A stretch of DNA of 64,000 bases from Microlunatus parietis (GTDB lineage: Bacteria; Actinomycetota; Actinomycetes; Propionibacteriales; Propionibacteriaceae). The notes under the pieces were generated by a model. The model made no database searches. It saw only the letters and a list, made by a program, of their open reading frames with translations, and was not told the origin of the DNA. The stretch is taken from NCBI RefSeq assembly GCF_013407955.1, contig NZ_JACCBU010000001.1, positions 4,960,001-5,024,000 of the forward strand. The letters are read 5' to 3'. The translations under genes were made by a program, and so were the position numbers. This document shows positions 2,679 through 44,623 of the stretch, piece after piece (position 1 is the stretch's first letter; the number at the start of each line of letters is the position of its first letter).

Positions 2679-2838
2679 CGTAGTCTCGCCCGGCCCGCCG
2701 CCGGTCAGAGGCGATCCAGGATCTATGCATCGTCCATGTCGACCTGCATCGTCCGCGTCGACTCCCAGCTGGTCCGGGTGCAGCCGTATCTGCTCGGACG
2801 GCTACCCGAGACCGATCATGCCGGTCCGGCAGGAGTTC

Positions 2839-2920
2839 GTGTCACGAATCTGCAATGCAACAGCGGCTCGAAGCCTATGAAATCGATTGCAGTACCTGTT
2901 CCGTTGCAGATTTGTGTCAC
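2839..2920. repeat. Imperfect 25-bp inverted repeat (element A)
   Basis: Arms at 2839-2863 and 2896-2920 pair at 21 of 25 positions around a 32-bp spacer. The spacer contains GAAATCGATT, a 10-mer that also lies at the centre of the inverted repeat at 28962-29019. The element is AT-richer than its surroundings and ends 19 bases before the NUDIX start codon, so it could be an operator, a MITE-like remnant or a structured leader. The rest of 2679-2939 shows no gene. Confidence 0.6.
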
Positions 2921-2939
2921 CTAGCCAAGGCTGATCAAT

Positions 2940-3389
2940 ATGGCTGACAGCTCGTCCCTTGCCCGACTCGCCAGTGAAGCCGAGCGCGATGGGGTCCACC
3001 AGCTTGTCGTTGGTGCGGTCGTCCACCACCACGGCAGGGTGCTGCTGCTCCGGCGTCCAGACGACGACTTCATGGGCGGCATCTTCGAACTGCCCAGCGG
3101 CAAGGTCGAGGTTGGCGAGGGTCTCGGCGAAGCGTTGGTTCGCGAGGTCACGGAGGAGACCGGTCTCGTCGTGGCTACCATCTCTGACTATCTCGGCCGT
3201 TTCGACTATGAGAGTGGAAGTGGCAAGGTGAGCCGACAGTTCAACTTCGCGGTCGAGATCCGCGAACCTGAACCCATCAAACTCGCGGAGCACGACGCCT
3301 ATATCTGGGCGACTCTGAATGAACCGTTGCCCGTTACCGACTCAGTCATGGAAGTGCTCGGCAGGTGTCGGGAATTGACTGGCGACTGA
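2940..3389 (+). CDS. NUDIX hydrolase
   Basis: 149 residues, full length for a small NUDIX protein. The complete NUDIX box GX5EX7REUXEEXGU is visible: G54, E60, then REVTEETGL at residues 68-76, so hydrolysis of a nucleoside diphosphate linked to another group is expected. The substrate cannot be read from sequence; MutT-like clean-up of oxidised or unusual nucleotides is one possibility. G+C (about 60%) and codon use are lower than in neighbours such as the cluster from 4 kb, and the gene is preceded by a palindromic element, both consistent with recent acquisition. The ATG is the first in the frame; no strong ribosome binding site is seen. Confidence 0.85.
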   Translation: MADSSSLARLASEAERDGVHQLVVGAVVHHHGRVLLLRRPDDDFMGGIFELPSGKVEVGEGLGEALVREVTEETGLVVATISDYLGRFDYESGSGKVSRQFNFAVEIREPEPIKLAEHDAYIWATLNEPLPVTDSVMEVLGRCRELTGD

Positions 3390-3448
3390 CTGGGTGATCA
3401 ACTCGCTCGGCACCACGGGTCCCCTATGAACAGAGGCTGCGTGACTCG

Positions 3449-3491
3449 GTCCTCGAACGAGGACAAGATCGTGATGTCCTTGAACGAGGAC
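3449..3491. promoter_or_regulatory. Tandem palindromes, candidate operator
   Basis: GTCCTCGAACGAGGAC (3449-3464) and GTCCTTGAACGAGGAC (3476-3491) are near-identical 16-bp inverted repeats whose starts are 27 bp apart. They lie about 100 bp upstream of the RibD-like gene. The spacing and symmetry suggest two dimer sites for one regulator, which is not adjacent. The remaining gap 3390-3587 holds nothing else clear. Confidence 0.5.
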
Positions 3492-3587
3492 CGAATTCAT
3501 GTCGGGCGGTTTGTCGGATCCGGCGTCTCGGCTCCGTACGAGTGTCGAATCGGGCCCGCCGGACCCGGCCAACTCAAGGAGATCGCC

Positions 3588-4151
3588 ATGACTCTCGTGT
3601 ACACCCACCTCTCTGCCTCGGTCGACGGCTACGTCTCCGGACGCGGCGCCCGGGCCGGGCTCGGGCTCGGCAACGGCTTCCGGATCTTCGACTGGCTGTC
3701 CGATCACAGTTCGGCGAACCGGGCGGTGAAGGAGTACGGCGGCAGCCGGGCCGCGGCCGTCGTTGCGGGGCGCAACACGTACGAACACGCGGACCGGTGG
3801 GGCGGCAACAGCATGGATGCCGGCACCCGGTTGTTCGTGGTCAGCCGGGACCCGATCCCGGACGCCGCTGAGGGTCAGACGATCGTCACCGACGGGCTCG
3901 AGTCGGCCGTCCGGCAGGCCCGGGAGGTGGCCGAAGCGGCCGGCAAGGACGTCAAGATCGCTGCCGGCGCGACCGCGACCGAGGCCATCCGGCTGGGGCT
4001 GCTCGACGAGATCTTGATCAGCCAGGTCCCGGTGCTGCTGGGCGGCGGGCATCCCTTCTTCCGCGAGCTCCCCGAAGCCGTCGAACTCGAGTGCACCTCG
4101 GTCGCCGTCAACCAGGGCGTCACCCATCTGACCTATCGCATCGTCAAGTAG
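3588..4151 (+). CDS. RibD C-terminal/dihydrofolate reductase-family protein
   Basis: 187 residues, starting at an ATG with AAGGAG at 3576-3581 six bases upstream; the frame is open further upstream but this ribosome binding site decides the start. The sequence opens with MTLVYTHLSASVDGYVSG, the standard N-terminus of stand-alone RibD_C proteins, and contains AAAVVAGRNTYEHADRWGG and the Gly-rich VLLGGGHPFF near the C-terminus. These are small NADPH-dependent reductases related to riboflavin-pathway reductase and DHFR; most single-domain members have no assigned substrate. Tandem palindromes upstream suggest regulated expression. It converges on the sialidase-like gene, 15 bases away. Confidence 0.85.
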   Translation: MTLVYTHLSASVDGYVSGRGARAGLGLGNGFRIFDWLSDHSSANRAVKEYGGSRAAAVVAGRNTYEHADRWGGNSMDAGTRLFVVSRDPIPDAAEGQTIVTDGLESAVRQAREVAEAAGKDVKIAAGATATEAIRLGLLDEILISQVPVLLGGGHPFFRELPEAVELECTSVAVNQGVTHLTYRIVK

Positions 4152-4166
4152 CGGCGACGGGTCTCG

Positions 4167-5366
4167 TCAGGGCTTGATCAGGTCGAGGACGCCGATCATG
4201 ATCTTGTTCCCGTCCGGTCGCACGTTGGCCATGGTGGTGACGAGCTGTCGCGGACCGGCCACCTCGATCGAGCCCCAGAATCCGTTCCCGGGCAGGAAAA
4301 CCTGGGAGTCGCCGAATTCGCGGGCGTCGTGATCACCGAGACGGACATGTTGGCGGGAGTCCAGGTTGTAGGCGAGCACGGACTCGCCGGACGGGAAGCG
4401 GGCCAGATACGGGGCCGCGCCGCGGAAGATGTTGTCCTGCCGTTCCGCCGGGCCGGGCTCGTTCAGGCCCAACCGGTCCGGCCAGTTCTGCCGGGTGTAG
4501 GCGAAGGAGATCCGGTACCCGTCGACGAGCCTGGACTCCATGGCGAGCGCGATGCCGCCCCGGGGATGCGTCTGCAGCGCGCTGGGCATCTGATCGGTGA
4601 AGATCTTGACTCCGGTGTCCGCGGTGCGGACGTATTGCTGAGCGACTCGATCGGCGGCGTACGGATAGTCGGTCACGTGCGGCGTCCACGTTCGACCTCG
4701 ATCGTGCGACCGGATGATCGCGACCCCGGTCGATCCGACGGTGTTCTCGATCACTCGTTTCGGTGCGCTGTGGGTGAAGTAGACCTGGACTTCGCCCGTT
4801 GGGGTCTGGTGCACGAACGGCTCCCAGTTGGCGCCGACGTAGATCACCTGCTCCGGCCCCCAGATGTTGCCGTTGTCGGTGCTGCGGCGCAGCATCAGCC
4901 CGTCGAGTTCCATGTGGGTGCTGAAGCGCTTGTTCGCCCGGAACGAGCACACGGCGAGGATCTCCCCGTTGTCGAGCACCCGCGCGTCCGCGGTGGCATA
5001 ACACTGATCATCGGCACCGTCGAGGATCTTGTGCGACGCGAACAGCAGTTGCGGTTCGGCCCAGCGCTTCAGGTCGCGGCTGATGGTCCGGTACACGTTC
5101 CAGGAGTGCTGAGACGTCTGGTACAGCAGCAGGAACCGGCCGTCCCGCATTCGCTTGATCCGCGGGTAGTGCGCGGTCTGGGTGTTGAGGAAGTCGGCGT
5201 CGAGCTCGACGTACCTCGACTCGTCCAACTCCAGCGAGGCCGGGCGGCGCGAAGGGTTCGCGGCGTGGGCCGGCACGGCAGCGCCGCCGATCAGCGGTGC
5301 CCCGATCGCGGCGGCCGAACCGGCGAGCAGGTGACGGCGGGCGATTCTGCGTTCAGGTGATGGCAT
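4167..5366 (-). CDS. Secreted sialidase/BNR-repeat-like protein (Tat signal)
   Basis: 399 residues from an ATG at 5366 with GGAG 7 bases upstream; an earlier ATG at 5393 would put nine residues ahead of the signal. A Tat signal is clear: RRIARRHLLAG, a hydrophobic stretch and an Ala-His-Ala cleavage region near residue 35. The body is a six-bladed-propeller type with Asp-box motifs S-x-D-x-G-x-x-W (RRSTDNGNIWGP, IIRSHDRGRTWTP). Exo-alpha-sialidases and related exported glycosidases or lectins share this fold; the sialidase Arg triad cannot be assigned with confidence. It overlaps the sulfatase stop by 14 bases, so it is translationally coupled and probably acts on the same extracellular glycan. 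Confidence 0.75.
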   Translation of the reverse strand: MPSPERRIARRHLLAGSAAAIGAPLIGGAAVPAHAANPSRRPASLELDESRYVELDADFLNTQTAHYPRIKRMRDGRFLLLYQTSQHSWNVYRTISRDLKRWAEPQLLFASHKILDGADDQCYATADARVLDNGEILAVCSFRANKRFSTHMELDGLMLRRSTDNGNIWGPEQVIYVGANWEPFVHQTPTGEVQVYFTHSAPKRVIENTVGSTGVAIIRSHDRGRTWTPHVTDYPYAADRVAQQYVRTADTGVKIFTDQMPSALQTHPRGGIALAMESRLVDGYRISFAYTRQNWPDRLGLNEPGPAERQDNIFRGAAPYLARFPSGESVLAYNLDSRQHVRLGDHDAREFGDSQVFLPGNGFWGSIEVAGPRQLVTTMANVRPDGNKIMIGVLDLIKP

Positions 5367-12144: not shown

Positions 12145-12156
12145 CCCCATTCCGCC

Positions 12157-12211
12157 GACCGGTCACCAAAGCAGGCGTTTTGACGGCGTGTCGCTGCAGA
12201 AGTGACCGGTC
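12157..12211. repeat. 55-bp dispersed element, copy 1
   Basis: Perfect 10-bp inverted ends, GACCGGTCAC (12157-12166) and GTGACCGGTC (12202-12211), enclose conserved blocks TTTTGACG and GTGTCGC. A second copy lies at 41143-41196 with the same block order. Both copies follow the 3' end of a plus-strand gene, so a REP-like element or exapted terminator is plausible. Confidence 0.75.
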
Positions 12212-12361
12212 GATGGAGCGAGGGGCGGGTGGTCGGCGTTCGGGGAGAGTCGTGGATCTGGGCCAGCCGGCGATCCCGGCGCCGCGGAGGAAGCGCCGCC
12301 GGCCCGCCTCCGTCTCCGCGCTCCGATGGATCAGTTCTGCCGCGAACTTTCGTCCGAACAC

Positions 12362-40080: not shown

Positions 40081-41169
40081 GTGACGGATTCGGTGATCGA
40101 TCGGCGACGGCGGGGCAGGGCGGCCTGGCTGCTGCTCCTGCTCGCGCCGCTCTGTGCCGAACTGGCGTTCTCGGCGGTGAGCATGCCGATCATGTGGCTC
40201 GCGTTCCCGTTCCTGATTCCGATGTACGGGCTGGGCGTGCTGGTGATCCGGGAGTTGGTCATCCGGTCCGGCGGCGGGTGGCCGAGCCTGCTGCTGATGG
40301 GCTTGGTCTACGAGCTCGCCGAGGACGGGCTCGGGCTGCAGGCGCTGACCAGCCCGGTGCTGTACAACGCGGCCGAGTGGGGACCTCGGGTGCTCGGGCT
40401 CAACCTGACCTACTGGGAGTCCCAGGTCGGCTACCACCTCACGTTCAGTGTGCTGATCCCGGTCATGATCACCAACCTGGTCTTCCCGGAGCTGCGGGCT
40501 GAGCCCTACCTGCGGCGACGGGGCTTGATCATCTCCGGGATCGCCGCAGCGCTCGGCATCGCGATGCTCAAGATCGTCTTCACCTCGACGACCGATCCCG
40601 GGTATCTGGCGCCGCTGCCGTTCCTGGTGGGGCTGGTGGCGGTGATGGGCGTCCTGTCCTTCGTCGCGCTGCGGATCCTGCCGCGGCGCTGGCCGGCCGC
40701 GGCACCGCCCGTGGCCGACCGTGGCGGCACCGGGCCACCGGTCCCCCCGCCGCCGGTCGCCGCGCTGATCGCCGCCGCGGCGACGTTGATCTTCCTCGGC
40801 CTGCTGATGCCGGGGGACCCGATGCAGGGGCCCGCGATCGGCGAAGGGAGCTTCGTCCTGCTGCCGATGACCGTCGCCGCCGCGGTCGCGATCACGGTGG
40901 CGGTCCTGATCGTGCGCTGGCACAACGCGGGGATGTCCGACCGGCACCGGATCTGGCTCGCCGGCGGTGCGCTGGTGGCGCACACCCTGTTCCCGATCGT
41001 GACGACGATCCTGCACCCGGTGGACCAGCTGACCACCACGGTCGCGCTCACGGCCGGTCCGGCCATGATCGTCGTGACCGTGCTGCTGCTGGCCCGGCTC
41101 GCCGCCGTGACCGGCCGTCGCTCCGGCCAGCTTTCTCCCGCCGACCGGTCACAACCGCTGCGGTTTTGA
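40081..41169 (+). CDS. Multi-spanning membrane protein of unknown function
   Basis: 362 residues from a GTG at 40081, with 9-10 hydrophobic segments (for example AAWLLLLLAPLCAELAFSAV, IPVMITNLVFPEL, VVTVLLLARLAAV). Glu-rich helix starts such as LLMGLVYELAEDGLGLQAL recall CPBP-type proteases but the catalytic EExxxR motif is not clear. The divergent TetR regulator probably controls it; such pairs often concern efflux or membrane stress. The last nine codons (PADRSQPLRF) are encoded by a 54-bp dispersed repeat, so the C-terminus has been replaced or extended by that insertion. Confidence 0.75.
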   Translation: MTDSVIDRRRRGRAAWLLLLLAPLCAELAFSAVSMPIMWLAFPFLIPMYGLGVLVIRELVIRSGGGWPSLLLMGLVYELAEDGLGLQALTSPVLYNAAEWGPRVLGLNLTYWESQVGYHLTFSVLIPVMITNLVFPELRAEPYLRRRGLIISGIAAALGIAMLKIVFTSTTDPGYLAPLPFLVGLVAVMGVLSFVALRILPRRWPAAAPPVADRGGTGPPVPPPPVAALIAAAATLIFLGLLMPGDPMQGPAIGEGSFVLLPMTVAAAVAITVAVLIVRWHNAGMSDRHRIWLAGGALVAHTLFPIVTTILHPVDQLTTTVALTAGPAMIVVTVLLLARLAAVTGRRSGQLSPADRSQPLRF

Positions 41170-41196
41170 CGTTGTGTCGCGCACTTGTGACGGGTC
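41143..41196. repeat. Dispersed element, copy 2 (54 bp)
   Basis: GACCGGTCAC at 41143 and GTGACGGGTC ending at 41196 flank TTTTGACG and GTGTCGC in the same order and spacing as 12157-12211. This copy overlaps the 3' end of the membrane-protein gene and lies 24 bases before the AbiE operator, at the likely edge of an acquired segment. Confidence 0.75.
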
Positions 41197-41220
41197 AGCA
41201 GGGTCTTTCAAATCCGGGAG

Positions 41221-41256
41221 TGCTGCATATCTATCAATAGTGATAGGTTTGCAGCA
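41221..41256. promoter_or_regulatory. Nested palindrome, AbiE promoter/operator
   Basis: Outer arms TGCTGCA (41221-41227) and TGCAGCA (41250-41256), inner arms CTATCA (41231-41236) and TGATAG (41241-41246). The last base is the A of the AbiEi start codon, so the mRNA is probably leaderless. AbiEi antitoxins are known to bind inverted repeats in their own promoter. Confidence 0.7.
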
Positions 41257-41912
41257 TGTCGCGCAGGACTGCCTTGGCTCAACTCGGCGACCTGGCCGCC
41301 GAGCAGTGGGGGATGGTGACGACGGCACAGGCTCGGCGCGCCGGGGTGAGCAGCTTGGACCTGGCACGACTGGCGAGTGACGGCATCCTTGCCCCGGTCA
41401 GCGGTGCGGCACGGGTGTATCGGGTGACCAGCACGCCTGAAAGCCCGGATCTGGATCCGCTGCGGGCGGCCTGGCTTCAACTCGGTGGCGGTCGAAGCTG
41501 GGAAGAACGGAGCCTCGACATGGACGCGGTCGTCAGTCATCGCTCGGCCGCACACCTTCGCGGGTTTGGCGATCTGATCCCGGAGGTTCACGAGTTCTAC
41601 GTCGTGCGACGTCGGCAACTTCGCCGCACGGATCTGCTGCTGCGTGTACGTCCGGCGATATCCCGAAGCGACTGGGAGTTCGTGGACGGGATGCCAGCGA
41701 GCCGGCCGGAGCAGATGGTCGCCGATCTTCTTGCCGATCACGAAGACGAGTCAGCCGTGGCACAGATCGTTCACGACGCCCATCGTGCCGGCCTACTCAC
41801 GCCGAGTCAGTTGACGGAGGTCGTGGCACCGCACGCGAGGCGGTACGGTCATCGAACGGGAGCCGACCTGGCGACCATGCTGCTGGCCGGCGCAGAAGGC
41901 GTGGAATCGTGA
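41256..41912 (+). CDS. AbiEi-type antitoxin
   Basis: 218 residues. The N-terminal winged helix AAEQWGMVTTAQARRAGVSS, the stretch DGILAPVSGAARVYRVTSTP and the C-terminal domain with VVSHRSAAHLRGFGDLIPE match AbiEi (PF13338-type N-terminus). In type IV toxin-antitoxin systems AbiEi represses the operon and counteracts AbiEii without direct binding. The stop overlaps the toxin start by GTGA. G+C is about 60%, well below neighbours, and a repeat lies just upstream, pointing to acquisition. Confidence 0.88.
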   Translation: MSRRTALAQLGDLAAEQWGMVTTAQARRAGVSSLDLARLASDGILAPVSGAARVYRVTSTPESPDLDPLRAAWLQLGGGRSWEERSLDMDAVVSHRSAAHLRGFGDLIPEVHEFYVVRRRQLRRTDLLLRVRPAISRSDWEFVDGMPASRPEQMVADLLADHEDESAVAQIVHDAHRAGLLTPSQLTEVVAPHARRYGHRTGADLATMLLAGAEGVES

Positions 41913-42859
41913 GTTCCAAGGGTGACCAGCCAGCGACGGTATCGGACGGTTTTCAGTACTCGACTGCCACCGCCTTCCATCGTGCGTTGCTCGATCGGTT
42001 CAAGGCGATCGCCAAGTCGGACCCGCGCTACAGCGTGAACCAGTTGCAGCGCCACTTCGCCTACGACCGAGTCCTGGCCCGGTGTTTCACGGCCCCAGAC
42101 GCCGACCTTTGGGTACTCAAAGGCGCGGGTGCGCTCCTGTCGCGCCTCCAGCACGCTCGCCACAGCCGGGACCTCGATCTCTACTATGCGGATTCTGATC
42201 ATGGAGTCGAGCACGCGGCAGCGGCGCTGCGTGCTGCGCTCGATCGTGATATCGGGGACAGGTTCAATTTCTCGGTCAGCCGCATCGTGCCCTTGCTCGA
42301 AGAGGCCAAGGGGTGTCGGGTGCACCTTGCCGCGATGCTCGGTCGGAAGGAGTTCTCGGTTTTCCACGTGGACGTCGTCGTGACGACTGCGATGACGCTG
42401 GCCGCCGAACGTGCCGCTCCGCTGACTCCCGTTCAGATCGACGGACTCGTACGACCCGATTACCGGGTGTTCCCGATCGTTGATCACCTCGCCGACAAGC
42501 TCTGTGCCATGGTCAGTACGCATGTCCAACAGGGCCGGGTCAATGCAAGCAGTCGGGTGAAGGATCTTGTGGACATCGCCTTGATCGCACGATCACACCG
42601 CATGGCGGGTGTTCAGTTGCGCCGGGCGATCGTTACGGGTTTCGCCTTTCGCGGCATGACCATGCCCGCGCGGTTCCAGGTTCCAGACCCGGTCGCTTGG
42701 CGTGCGGGATACCCGAAGTCGGCGGCTTCCGCTCCGGCTCCCGTACCCAGTTACGAAGACGCGGTCGATCTTGCAACGCGACTCCTCGATCCCGTCCTGG
42801 CCGGCCGTGTCGAAGGCACCTGGGAGCCCGAAGCCCGTCAGTGGCGGGATGCGAAATGA
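41909..42859 (+). CDS. AbiEii-type nucleotidyltransferase toxin
   Basis: 316 residues from a GTG at 41909. WVLKGAGALLSR followed by HSRDLDLYY gives the G-x..D-x-D core of the AbiEii nucleotidyltransferase (PF08843), and IVDHLADKLCAMVS and SSRVKDLVDIALIA complete the conserved motifs. The catalytic residues appear intact, so the toxin should be active. AbiE systems abort phage infection and stabilise DNA; related toxins attach nucleotides to tRNA. G+C is low like the antitoxin gene. Confidence 0.9.
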   Translation: MSSKGDQPATVSDGFQYSTATAFHRALLDRFKAIAKSDPRYSVNQLQRHFAYDRVLARCFTAPDADLWVLKGAGALLSRLQHARHSRDLDLYYADSDHGVEHAAAALRAALDRDIGDRFNFSVSRIVPLLEEAKGCRVHLAAMLGRKEFSVFHVDVVVTTAMTLAAERAAPLTPVQIDGLVRPDYRVFPIVDHLADKLCAMVSTHVQQGRVNASSRVKDLVDIALIARSHRMAGVQLRRAIVTGFAFRGMTMPARFQVPDPVAWRAGYPKSAASAPAPVPSYEDAVDLATRLLDPVLAGRVEGTWEPEARQWRDAK

Positions 42860-42892
42860 CCTGCGTCGGGTTGCCTGACGGGTCAGCGCGGA

Positions 42893-44623
42893 CTACTCGA
42901 CCAGCTTGCCTGCGGTCTCGACGTCCTTGATCAACTTCTCGATCTCAGCCGATAGGGGAGCGATCGGCTCGGCGGTGACACCGTTGGCCGGGGACCAGAC
43001 CAGGTTCACCTGCAGGGCCGGGTCGGGGTCGGGGTAGTCGGAGCGGTTGTGGCAGCCGCGGGTCTCCCGCCGTTCCAGGGCCGACTCGAGGGTGGCGCGG
43101 GCGGCCAGGATCGACGCCTTGAGGTCGAACGCGTGGGCCAGGTCGGAGTACCCGGCGAGGTCGGGATGGACGCCGATCTTGGTGGCGCGCTCCTCGATTT
43201 CGGCCAGTTCGGCCAGCCCGGTGGTCAGGCCGTTCTCGTCGCGGACCACGCCGGCGTACTCGGTCATCGTCGTGCGCAGGGCCCGCTGCAGGGCCCGGAC
43301 GTTCTCCGGGCCGTCGGCGGCGAGCAGTCCGGCCAGCTCGGCCCGGGCGTTCGCGATCGCGCCGGGGGAGCGGCGCTGCACGGCCCGGGCGGCGGCGAAG
43401 TCGGCGGCGGCGCGGCCGGTGATCCTGCCGTAGACCAGGAGTTCGATCAAGGAGTTGCCGCCCAGCCGGTTGGCGCCGTGCAAGCCGCTGGCCGCCTCGC
43501 CGATCGCGTACAGGCCGGCCACATCGGTTCCATGATCATCGTGCCGGGTCCGGACGCCGCCCATCGAATAGTGCGCGGTCGGCGCGACCTCGATCGGATG
43601 CTGGGTGATGTCCAGCAGCTGCAGGTCGAGCAGGGTCTGGTAGACCCGGGGCAGCCGGTTCATGATCGTTTCCCGCGGCAGGTGCGACACGTCCAGCCAG
43701 ACGCCGCCCTTCTCGGTGCCGCGGCCTGCCTTGATCTCCGTGTACGCGGCCAGGGCGACCCGGTCCCGGGTCGACAACTCCATCCGCTCCGGATCGTAGC
43801 GTTCCATGAACCGTTCGCCGACGGCGTTGCGCAGGATGCCGCCCTCGCCCCGGGCGGCCTCCGAGACCAGCGTCCCGGCCGCGCTCTCCGGGTCCAGGAT
43901 CCCGGACGGGTGGAACTGCACCAGCTCTGCGTCGCGCAGCCGGCCGCCGGCCTCGACGGCCAGCCGGAACGCGTCGCCGGTGTTCTCGTCCCGGCGCGAC
44001 GAGGTGCGCCGCCAGATCCGGGTGTGCCCGCCCGCGGCCAGGATCACCGCGTCGGCGTGGATCAGGGCGGGGCTGCCGTCGGCGAGGTCGAAGCCGTACG
44101 CGCCGAAGACCGTGTTGTCGTCGACCAGGATCCGGGTCACGTACACGCTGTCCAAGATCGGGATCTCCAACTGCTCGGCGCGGGCGAGCAGGCTGCGCTG
44201 GATCTCCAGCCCGGTGTAGTCGCCGGCGAACGCGGTCCGCCGGAACGTGTGCGCACCGAAGAACCGCTGCGAGATCCGCCCGTCGGTCTCCCGCGCAAAG
44301 GCCATGCCGTAGCGCTCAAGATCACGAATGCCCTGTTCGGCGCCGCGGGTGACGATCTCGACGGTCCGCGGGTCGGCCAGGTAATAGCTCTCCTTGATCG
44401 TGTCGGCCGCGTGCTGCTGCCAGGAGTCCTGCGGATCCATGGTGGCGAGCGGAGCGTTGATGCCGCCGGCGGCGAGCGAGGTGTGCGCGTCCAGCCGGGG
44501 CCGTTTGCCGAGCACGATCACGTCGACCCGCTGCTCGGCGAGCTCGATCGCCGCCCGCAGCCCCGATCCGCCGCTGCCGATCACCAGGACCGTGGTGGAG
44601 ATCCTTCGCTCCGAGTCGTTCAT
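42893..44623 (-). CDS. Fumarate reductase/succinate dehydrogenase-type flavoprotein
   Basis: 576 residues from ATG 44623, sharing one base with the cytochrome b stop. The FAD fold starts with TVLVIGSGGSGLRAAIELAE; H47 in DAHTSLAAGGINA is the residue that binds FAD covalently in SdhA/FrdA. The dicarboxylate site is intact: QFHPSGILD, LVSEAARGEGGILRN and APTAHYSMGGV. So it should interconvert fumarate and succinate or act on a similar acid. No iron-sulfur FrdB/SdhB gene is adjacent; instead it ends an operon with NDH-2 and a cytochrome b, suggesting an unusual electron route. Confidence 0.88.
   Translation of the reverse strand: MNDSERRISTTVLVIGSGGSGLRAAIELAEQRVDVIVLGKRPRLDAHTSLAAGGINAPLATMDPQDSWQQHAADTIKESYYLADPRTVEIVTRGAEQGIRDLERYGMAFARETDGRISQRFFGAHTFRRTAFAGDYTGLEIQRSLLARAEQLEIPILDSVYVTRILVDDNTVFGAYGFDLADGSPALIHADAVILAAGGHTRIWRRTSSRRDENTGDAFRLAVEAGGRLRDAELVQFHPSGILDPESAAGTLVSEAARGEGGILRNAVGERFMERYDPERMELSTRDRVALAAYTEIKAGRGTEKGGVWLDVSHLPRETIMNRLPRVYQTLLDLQLLDITQHPIEVAPTAHYSMGGVRTRHDDHGTDVAGLYAIGEAASGLHGANRLGGNSLIELLVYGRITGRAAADFAAARAVQRRSPGAIANARAELAGLLAADGPENVRALQRALRTTMTEYAGVVRDENGLTTGLAELAEIEERATKIGVHPDLAGYSDLAHAFDLKASILAARATLESALERRETRGCHNRSDYPDPDPALQVNLVWSPANGVTAEPIAPLSAEIEKLIKDVETAGKLVE

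Follow-up and report, generated by a model that had tools for sequence, protein, structure and literature searches.

A probably acquired type IV AbiE operon in Microlunatus parietis and a palindrome and promoter layout common to many AbiEi homologues

Described AbiE systems and the Microlunatus parietis locus

The type IV abiE operon of Streptococcus agalactiae is bicistronic, its two genes overlap by 4 nt, and its antitoxin AbiEi binds inverted repeats, arranged as 23-N3-23, that lie over the promoter; transcription was mapped to start 26 bp upstream of the ATG, in a leader that carries a ribosome site (PMC3985639). Similar repeats are described upstream of other abiE loci in the 2014 AbiE paper. 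The mycobacterial Rv2827c-Rv2826c operon encodes an AbiEi-like autorepressor and has four 23-bp repeats in two pairs, located between -1 and -131 relative to the start codon; for rv1044-rv1045 the same source reports that inverted repeats were not identifiable and that Rv1044 did not bind the upstream probes tested there (PMC7319586). The subject of this report is an AbiEi/AbiEii gene pair in a 64,000-nt stretch of the Microlunatus parietis genome (contig NZ_JACCBU010000001.1, positions 4,960,001 to 5,024,000; hereafter the window), together with the palindrome that precedes it (Table 1).

Like the S. agalactiae operon, the window pair is bicistronic with a 4-nt overlap (41909-41912), AbiEi lies directly upstream of AbiEii as membership of type IV AbiE requires, the antitoxin has the AbiEi fold in its predicted model, and a palindrome occupies the same kind of place, where binding is predicted. 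The two differ in that the window pair has one palindrome of 36 bp ending at the ATG, with no room for a leader, and in that its putative -10 element, TAGGTT, follows the palindrome centre by about 6 nt (6-7.5 nt in most homologues), whereas TAAAAT of S. agalactiae, placed from the printed sequence and a 17-bp spacer, follows by about 1 nt (PMC3985639). The window pair resembles Rv2827c in the location of its repeats close to the start codon, and differs in having the single 36-bp palindrome. The system as such is thus known, and it is the geometry of its promoter that is different and recurrent. The AbiE pair is in itself ordinary; what is new here, as read from the sequences, is a palindrome and promoter layout common to many AbiEi homologues.

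The palindrome and its register with the promoter

The palindrome has the form TGCTGCA-tat-CTATCA-ATAG-TGATAG-gtt-TGCAGCA, with 16-nt arms that are 88% complementary. The original prediction had described a 36-bp nested palindrome ending on the start codon, and this is what was found, its last base being the A of the ATG. As a single strand it folds with z = -6.36, none of 200 shuffles being as good, and with unpaired bases masked no second site within three mismatches occurs in the 7.24-Mb host genome, which is a single contig. The spacing of TAGGTT from the ATG fits transcription starting at that codon, and no Shine-Dalgarno sequence was seen upstream of it. The start of AbiEi is backed by an alignment of 22 homologues and by seven plasmid AbiEi genes whose annotated starts likewise make this conserved Trp residue 18; upstream of the ATG, the frame reaches a stop at 41244 with no alternative start in between.

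Homologues of AbiEi were drawn from genomes of the class (matches in 24 of 394), the phylum (29 of 396) and the order (56 of 293), and from the genomes holding AbiEii relatives. The 140 homologous loci scanned, some of which hold the same gene twice, yielded 91 frames with a usable AbiEi start, chosen by protein alignment only; loci without a recognisable AbiEi N-terminus, a start codon or 60 nt of upstream sequence were left out. Removal of 12 upstream regions sharing more than 80% identity over 60 nt left 79 non-redundant regions. In 51 of these the centre of the best palindrome lies between -20.5 and -17.5, whereas 200 shuffled sets scored by the same tie rule give 10.2 on average and 21 at most; under the opposite tie rule the count is 47, against a shuffle mean of 4.2 and a maximum of 10. 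Not one of these 51 loci has a Shine-Dalgarno-like match, and 46 carry TAnnnT at -12 or -13. Across the whole set TAnnnT stands at one of these positions in 53 of the 79 upstream regions compared with 1 of 39 controls (other annotated plasmid genes), and palindromes of at least 11 pairs near -19 occur in 37 of 79 compared with none of 39. In a further 18 loci the palindrome is centred further upstream, at -33 to -38.5; a Shine-Dalgarno-like match is present in 16 of these, and in 17 TAnnnT lies 6-7 nt after the centre.

The two closest AbiEi loci (L103 and L104) match the window at 25 and 27 of the 36 positions from -36 to -1, but at only 17 and 15 of the 54 positions from -90 to -37. Over 69 of the 79 loci, operator distance correlates with that between the AbiEi proteins (r 0.65), the upstream flank scarcely at all (r 0.15). 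Half-sites differ strongly between subfamilies, whereas the palindrome geometry is constant. Actinobacterial AbiE operons that differ from the window pair in being plasmid-borne were also compared: in seven named loci examined, from 98 plasmid records, the same gene pair is present in all seven, TAnnnT lies at -12 in five and the palindrome centre falls within -21.5 to -18 in five, the best AbiEii identity to the window being 36% among the matches listed.

Several observations weigh against the proposed operator and promoter. The 18 palindromes of the 'far' class are not above shuffles by position alone (mean 10.3, maximum 20); what sets this class apart is the presence of ribosome sites and the register with TAnnnT. 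Ten of the 79 loci belong to neither class, even though seven of them still have TAnnnT at -12 or -13; individual significance at p <= 0.02 is reached by only 32 of the 79 palindromes; and the 79 loci are related to one another and are not independent events. Six of the 39 control genes have their best, albeit weaker, centre near -19. Among the plasmid loci only three of seven centres lie within the narrower -20.5 to -17.5 interval, and two of the seven lack TAnnnT at -12. The DNA-binding half of AbiEi was considered as a better predictor of the operator and set aside, its partial r being 0.310 against 0.315 for the rest of the protein. At the window locus itself, a scan of 41000-43000 for sigma-70 consensus promoters found none; a terminator scan of the same interval was likewise empty. 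Even so, the palindrome-to-promoter register recurs among homologues, and the original prediction that the autoregulatory site can be read from the sequence is thereby supported indirectly.

Further observations concern other AbiE loci. In locus L020 (790-2316, genome G031), AbiEi and AbiEii matches fall in one 509-codon open frame, apparently a natural fusion, and a palindrome ends near the start codon of that frame. A genome of the same order as the host (G989) holds seven AbiEi matches (L159, L186-L190 and L201), and several kinds of palindrome are found among its six AbiEi upstream regions in the 79-locus set. On two Rhodococcus plasmids (L227 and L228) the AbiEi and AbiEii genes lie about 0.35 and 0.87 kb apart, respectively, the larger gap containing an opposite-strand gene.

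The gene pair and its acquisition

Table 1. Features at the AbiE locus (window positions)
Feature	Position	Strand	Remarks
Dispersed hairpin element, complete copy, ~65 bp	41137..41202	+	arms 41137-41154 / 41185-41202
12-bp direct repeat TGACGGGTCAGC, left copy	41188..41199	+	near right end of the dispersed element
Nested palindrome, 36 bp	41221..41256	+	proposed AbiEi operator
TAGGTT	41244..41249	+	proposed -10 (TAnnnT); six-base gap to the ATG
AbiEi	41256..41912	+	antitoxin, proposed autorepressor; ATG start, 218 aa
AbiEii	41909..42859	+	predicted nucleotidyltransferase toxin; GTG start, 316 aa
12-bp direct repeat TGACGGGTCAGC, right copy	42876..42887	+	5 nt before stop codon of convergent flavoprotein gene

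By sequence profiles and predicted folds, the window pair is a member of the type IV AbiE family. AbiEi matches the PADLOC profile PDLC02231 (E 4.7e-72) and Pfam PF13338, and AbiEii matches PDLC02291 (E 1e-82) and PF08843; neither protein matched an NCBIfam profile at E 0.01. Sequence searches of the PDB returned nothing for AbiEii and just two matches for AbiEi (E 0.34-0.35), and predicted folds were therefore needed to find structural relatives. The AlphaFold2 model of AbiEi (pLDDT 94.4) conforms to the AbiEi fold, an N-terminal winged helix with a C-terminal antitoxicity domain, and its best PDB match is the S. agalactiae AbiEi structure 6y8q (E 4.3e-8, TM about 0.5), followed by 1zel (Rv2827c; E 1.4e-6). 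For the AbiEii model (pLDDT 93.5) the nine best matches are all MenT3/TglT, with 6j7r at E 5.7e-13 and TM 0.67-0.73.

Toxin and antitoxin both look intact from sequence and models. In an alignment of 32 AbiEii sequences, with the window protein scored against the other 31, the window protein has the common residue at every one of the 38 columns where at least 28 of those homologues agree; these include G72, R84, D90, K197, D219 and D222. The nucleotidyltransferase motifs (hG[G/S]..DhD, a conserved Lys and +DxxD) can be traced to G72, R84, D88/D90, K197 and K218-D219..D222, which bears out the earlier claim that the catalytic motifs of the toxin are all present, with Ala replacing the second Gly of motif I. 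A segment reading R84-x-S86-x-D88-x-D90 places S86 where, we presume, MenT3 has its phosphoacceptor serine. MenT3 (TglT, Rv1045) bears a phosphoserine (PMC11375011); it is the best PDB match of the model, at an identity of 18-20%. The G50A change in S. agalactiae AbiEii, at the second motif I position, left toxicity intact (PMC3985639); the motif III aromatic residue and Arg, as the same source writes them for COG4849, are not seen in the window protein.

Base composition marks the pair off from its surroundings, as had been proposed. Its G+C is 64.7%, compared with 70.2% for the window as a whole, and the lowest-G+C stretch of 1604 nt in the window, sampled in 50-nt steps, begins at 41151; G+C at third codon positions (GC3) is 0.72 in both AbiE genes and 0.90-0.94 in seven neighbours. 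A second stretch, at 2701-4305, is nearly as low (64.2%) and contains an open reading frame (ORF) on the reverse strand (2805-3293) with a GC3 of 0.69, perhaps another acquired gene. At E <= 1e-5, AbiEii relatives were found in 12 of the 57 genomes searched, the host genome counted, and in none of the 19 other genomes of the genus, some of which are incomplete assemblies. The host itself has two further AbiEii-family genes (L001 and L003) that window AbiEii misses at this threshold, the first with a weak AbiEi-like neighbour.

An empty site was found in a relative from the same genus (G004). There the gene order TetR, membrane protein, flavoprotein, cytochrome b is conserved with no AbiE between, the flavoprotein and the membrane protein being 88% and 79% identical to those of the window, and 26 nt separate the two convergent stop codons of membrane protein and flavoprotein. 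Relatives of the membrane protein occur in 4 of 198 genomes of the family, the host genome counted, and by listed positions only in G004 does one adjoin the flavoprotein, so that the empty-site evidence is a single comparison. The possibility that the pair stands at the same place in all relatives with a normal G+C was checked and did not hold. Because GC3 is deviant, G004 has an empty site and none of the 19 same-genus genomes has a toxin relative, acquisition of the pair, as judged from sequence, is well supported.

To the left of the pair, ending 53 nt before the AbiEi ATG, is a copy of a dispersed hairpin element that supplies the final codons of the upstream membrane protein as well. It had been taken for the 'right end' of a dispersed element; this was a misreading, as the copy is full-length with both inverted arms. 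The element has a conserved loop region around GTTTTGRCGGCGTGT and occupies at least 43 distinct places in the host genome (L055-L093 among them), a count made up of the best 40 of 122 candidates scored, two from a second search and the other window copy at 12151-12215. Among the genomes of the genus it was found at 8 distinct places in G004 (10 rows), at one in G016 and in none of the other 17. A search of Rfam with 40900-43000, which includes the element copy, found nothing at E <= 0.5. In G004 the end of this membrane protein is encoded by a different repeat, CCCTGAGCTTGTCGAAGGG, which sits at the empty site (L030, about 3230-3300) and has three further matches elsewhere in the window (33995, 34034 and 46476); the junction between membrane protein and flavoprotein may attract repeats.

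Alternative readings and proposed regulation

Two other accounts concern the history of the insert. That the pair is ancestral to the genus and was lost in relatives, its low G+C being maintained by other causes, gains something from the finding of both gene neighbours side by side in one relative only, yet the absence of toxin relatives from all 19 same-genus genomes, a GC3 far off that of the neighbours and the direct repeat of 12 bp that flanks the insert make it most improbable. The other account is compatible with an acquired operon and concerns its route of arrival: the operon was inserted, as a cassette, into the element's right end, the 12-bp repeat being a target duplication or a recombination core. 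The 12-mer TGACGGGTCAGC occurs exactly twice in the window and just seven times in 7.24 Mb, with two of the seven at the insert borders, and the left one lies near the end of the element. Its form there, TGACGGGTCA, is found in only 1 of 41 aligned element copies, namely the one at 41137-41202, so that the right 12-mer was probably copied from or with the left. Against this, inverted ends on the insert were not found by eye, no recombinase or transposase is among the genes adjoining it, the other five genomic 12-mers lie outside clear element copies, and there is one case only. That the right border is a second element copy was not supported (its score of 18 is below the 95th percentile of shuffles, 20), and the notion that the element might be an integron-like attachment site was set aside on the general features of such sites, no search for an integrase being made. 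The repeat looks like a duplication made when a 1688-bp segment entered the end of the element, a single case that does not show the mechanism; arrival as a cassette is possible but on balance doubtful.

The third alternative bears on what the palindrome does. It might act in a 5' leader, as a hairpin of the RNA that masks the start codon, in which case control would be translational and the palindrome would be no DNA operator. Its good single-stranded folding and its contact with the start codon are what such a hairpin would show, but the lack of any Shine-Dalgarno-like match among the 51 loci with the near palindrome, together with TAnnnT at -12 or -13 in 46 of them, suggests that the transcript starts at the codon, so that the hairpin would not be transcribed. 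In addition, the relatives with leaders keep the distance from palindrome to TAnnnT and not that from palindrome to start codon. A translational role is, in our judgement, very unlikely.

The reading we consider likely is that of an acquired type IV AbiE operon in which AbiEi represses its own synthesis through the palindrome, the antitoxin is translated from a leaderless mRNA and AbiEii is a MenT-like, tRNA-modifying enzyme. AbiEi would neutralise AbiEii and repress the operon by binding both arms of the palindrome, which would cover positions from about -35 to +1, the core promoter, such that bound AbiEi would exclude RNA polymerase. Without AbiEi bound, the proposed -10 element would direct transcription to begin at the first base of the ATG, giving a leaderless antitoxin mRNA; AbiEii would be translated via the 4-nt overlap with AbiEi and, once freed, would modify tRNA and arrest growth. 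Studies of S. agalactiae AbiE, Rv2827c and MenT toxins are the basis on which operator binding, start site, toxicity and target are inferred; repression, the leaderless start and any benefit to the host are inferences too. In the open-access literature searched, supplements and subscription papers being outside its scope, no link between AbiE and leaderless starts was found.

From family and fold, AbiEii is most likely a MenT-like nucleotidyltransferase that blocks translation by modifying tRNA. As for the role of the pair in its host, the original prediction of phage defence is possible as a guess made at the level of the family. Homologues of AbiEii occur in 98 of 72,556 plasmid records (PLSDB) and in none of 50,697 phage records, and stabilisation of mobile DNA is therefore at least as likely.

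A broader proposal can be put forward only as speculation with the odds against it: that in this AbiE branch, probably across the actinomycetes, operator and core promoter form one object of fixed geometry, leaderless in the majority, and that the leaderless start is functional. Were this true, a leaderless antitoxin mRNA would still be translated when the toxin disturbs ordinary initiation, and with antitoxin still being made in the presence of toxin, the promoter layout would be part of the toxin-control circuit. The useful part of the present analysis is a rule that may allow AbiEi operators to be read from sequence in this group: transcription starts some 19 bases downstream of the palindrome centre, TAnnnT follows 6-7 bases after the centre, and the start codon stands on or next to the last base of the palindrome unless a leader with a ribosome site comes after. 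For dozens of operons the rule gives predictions of where AbiEi binds and where transcription begins, and the homologous loci offer natural pairs of AbiEi protein and site for studies of specificity.

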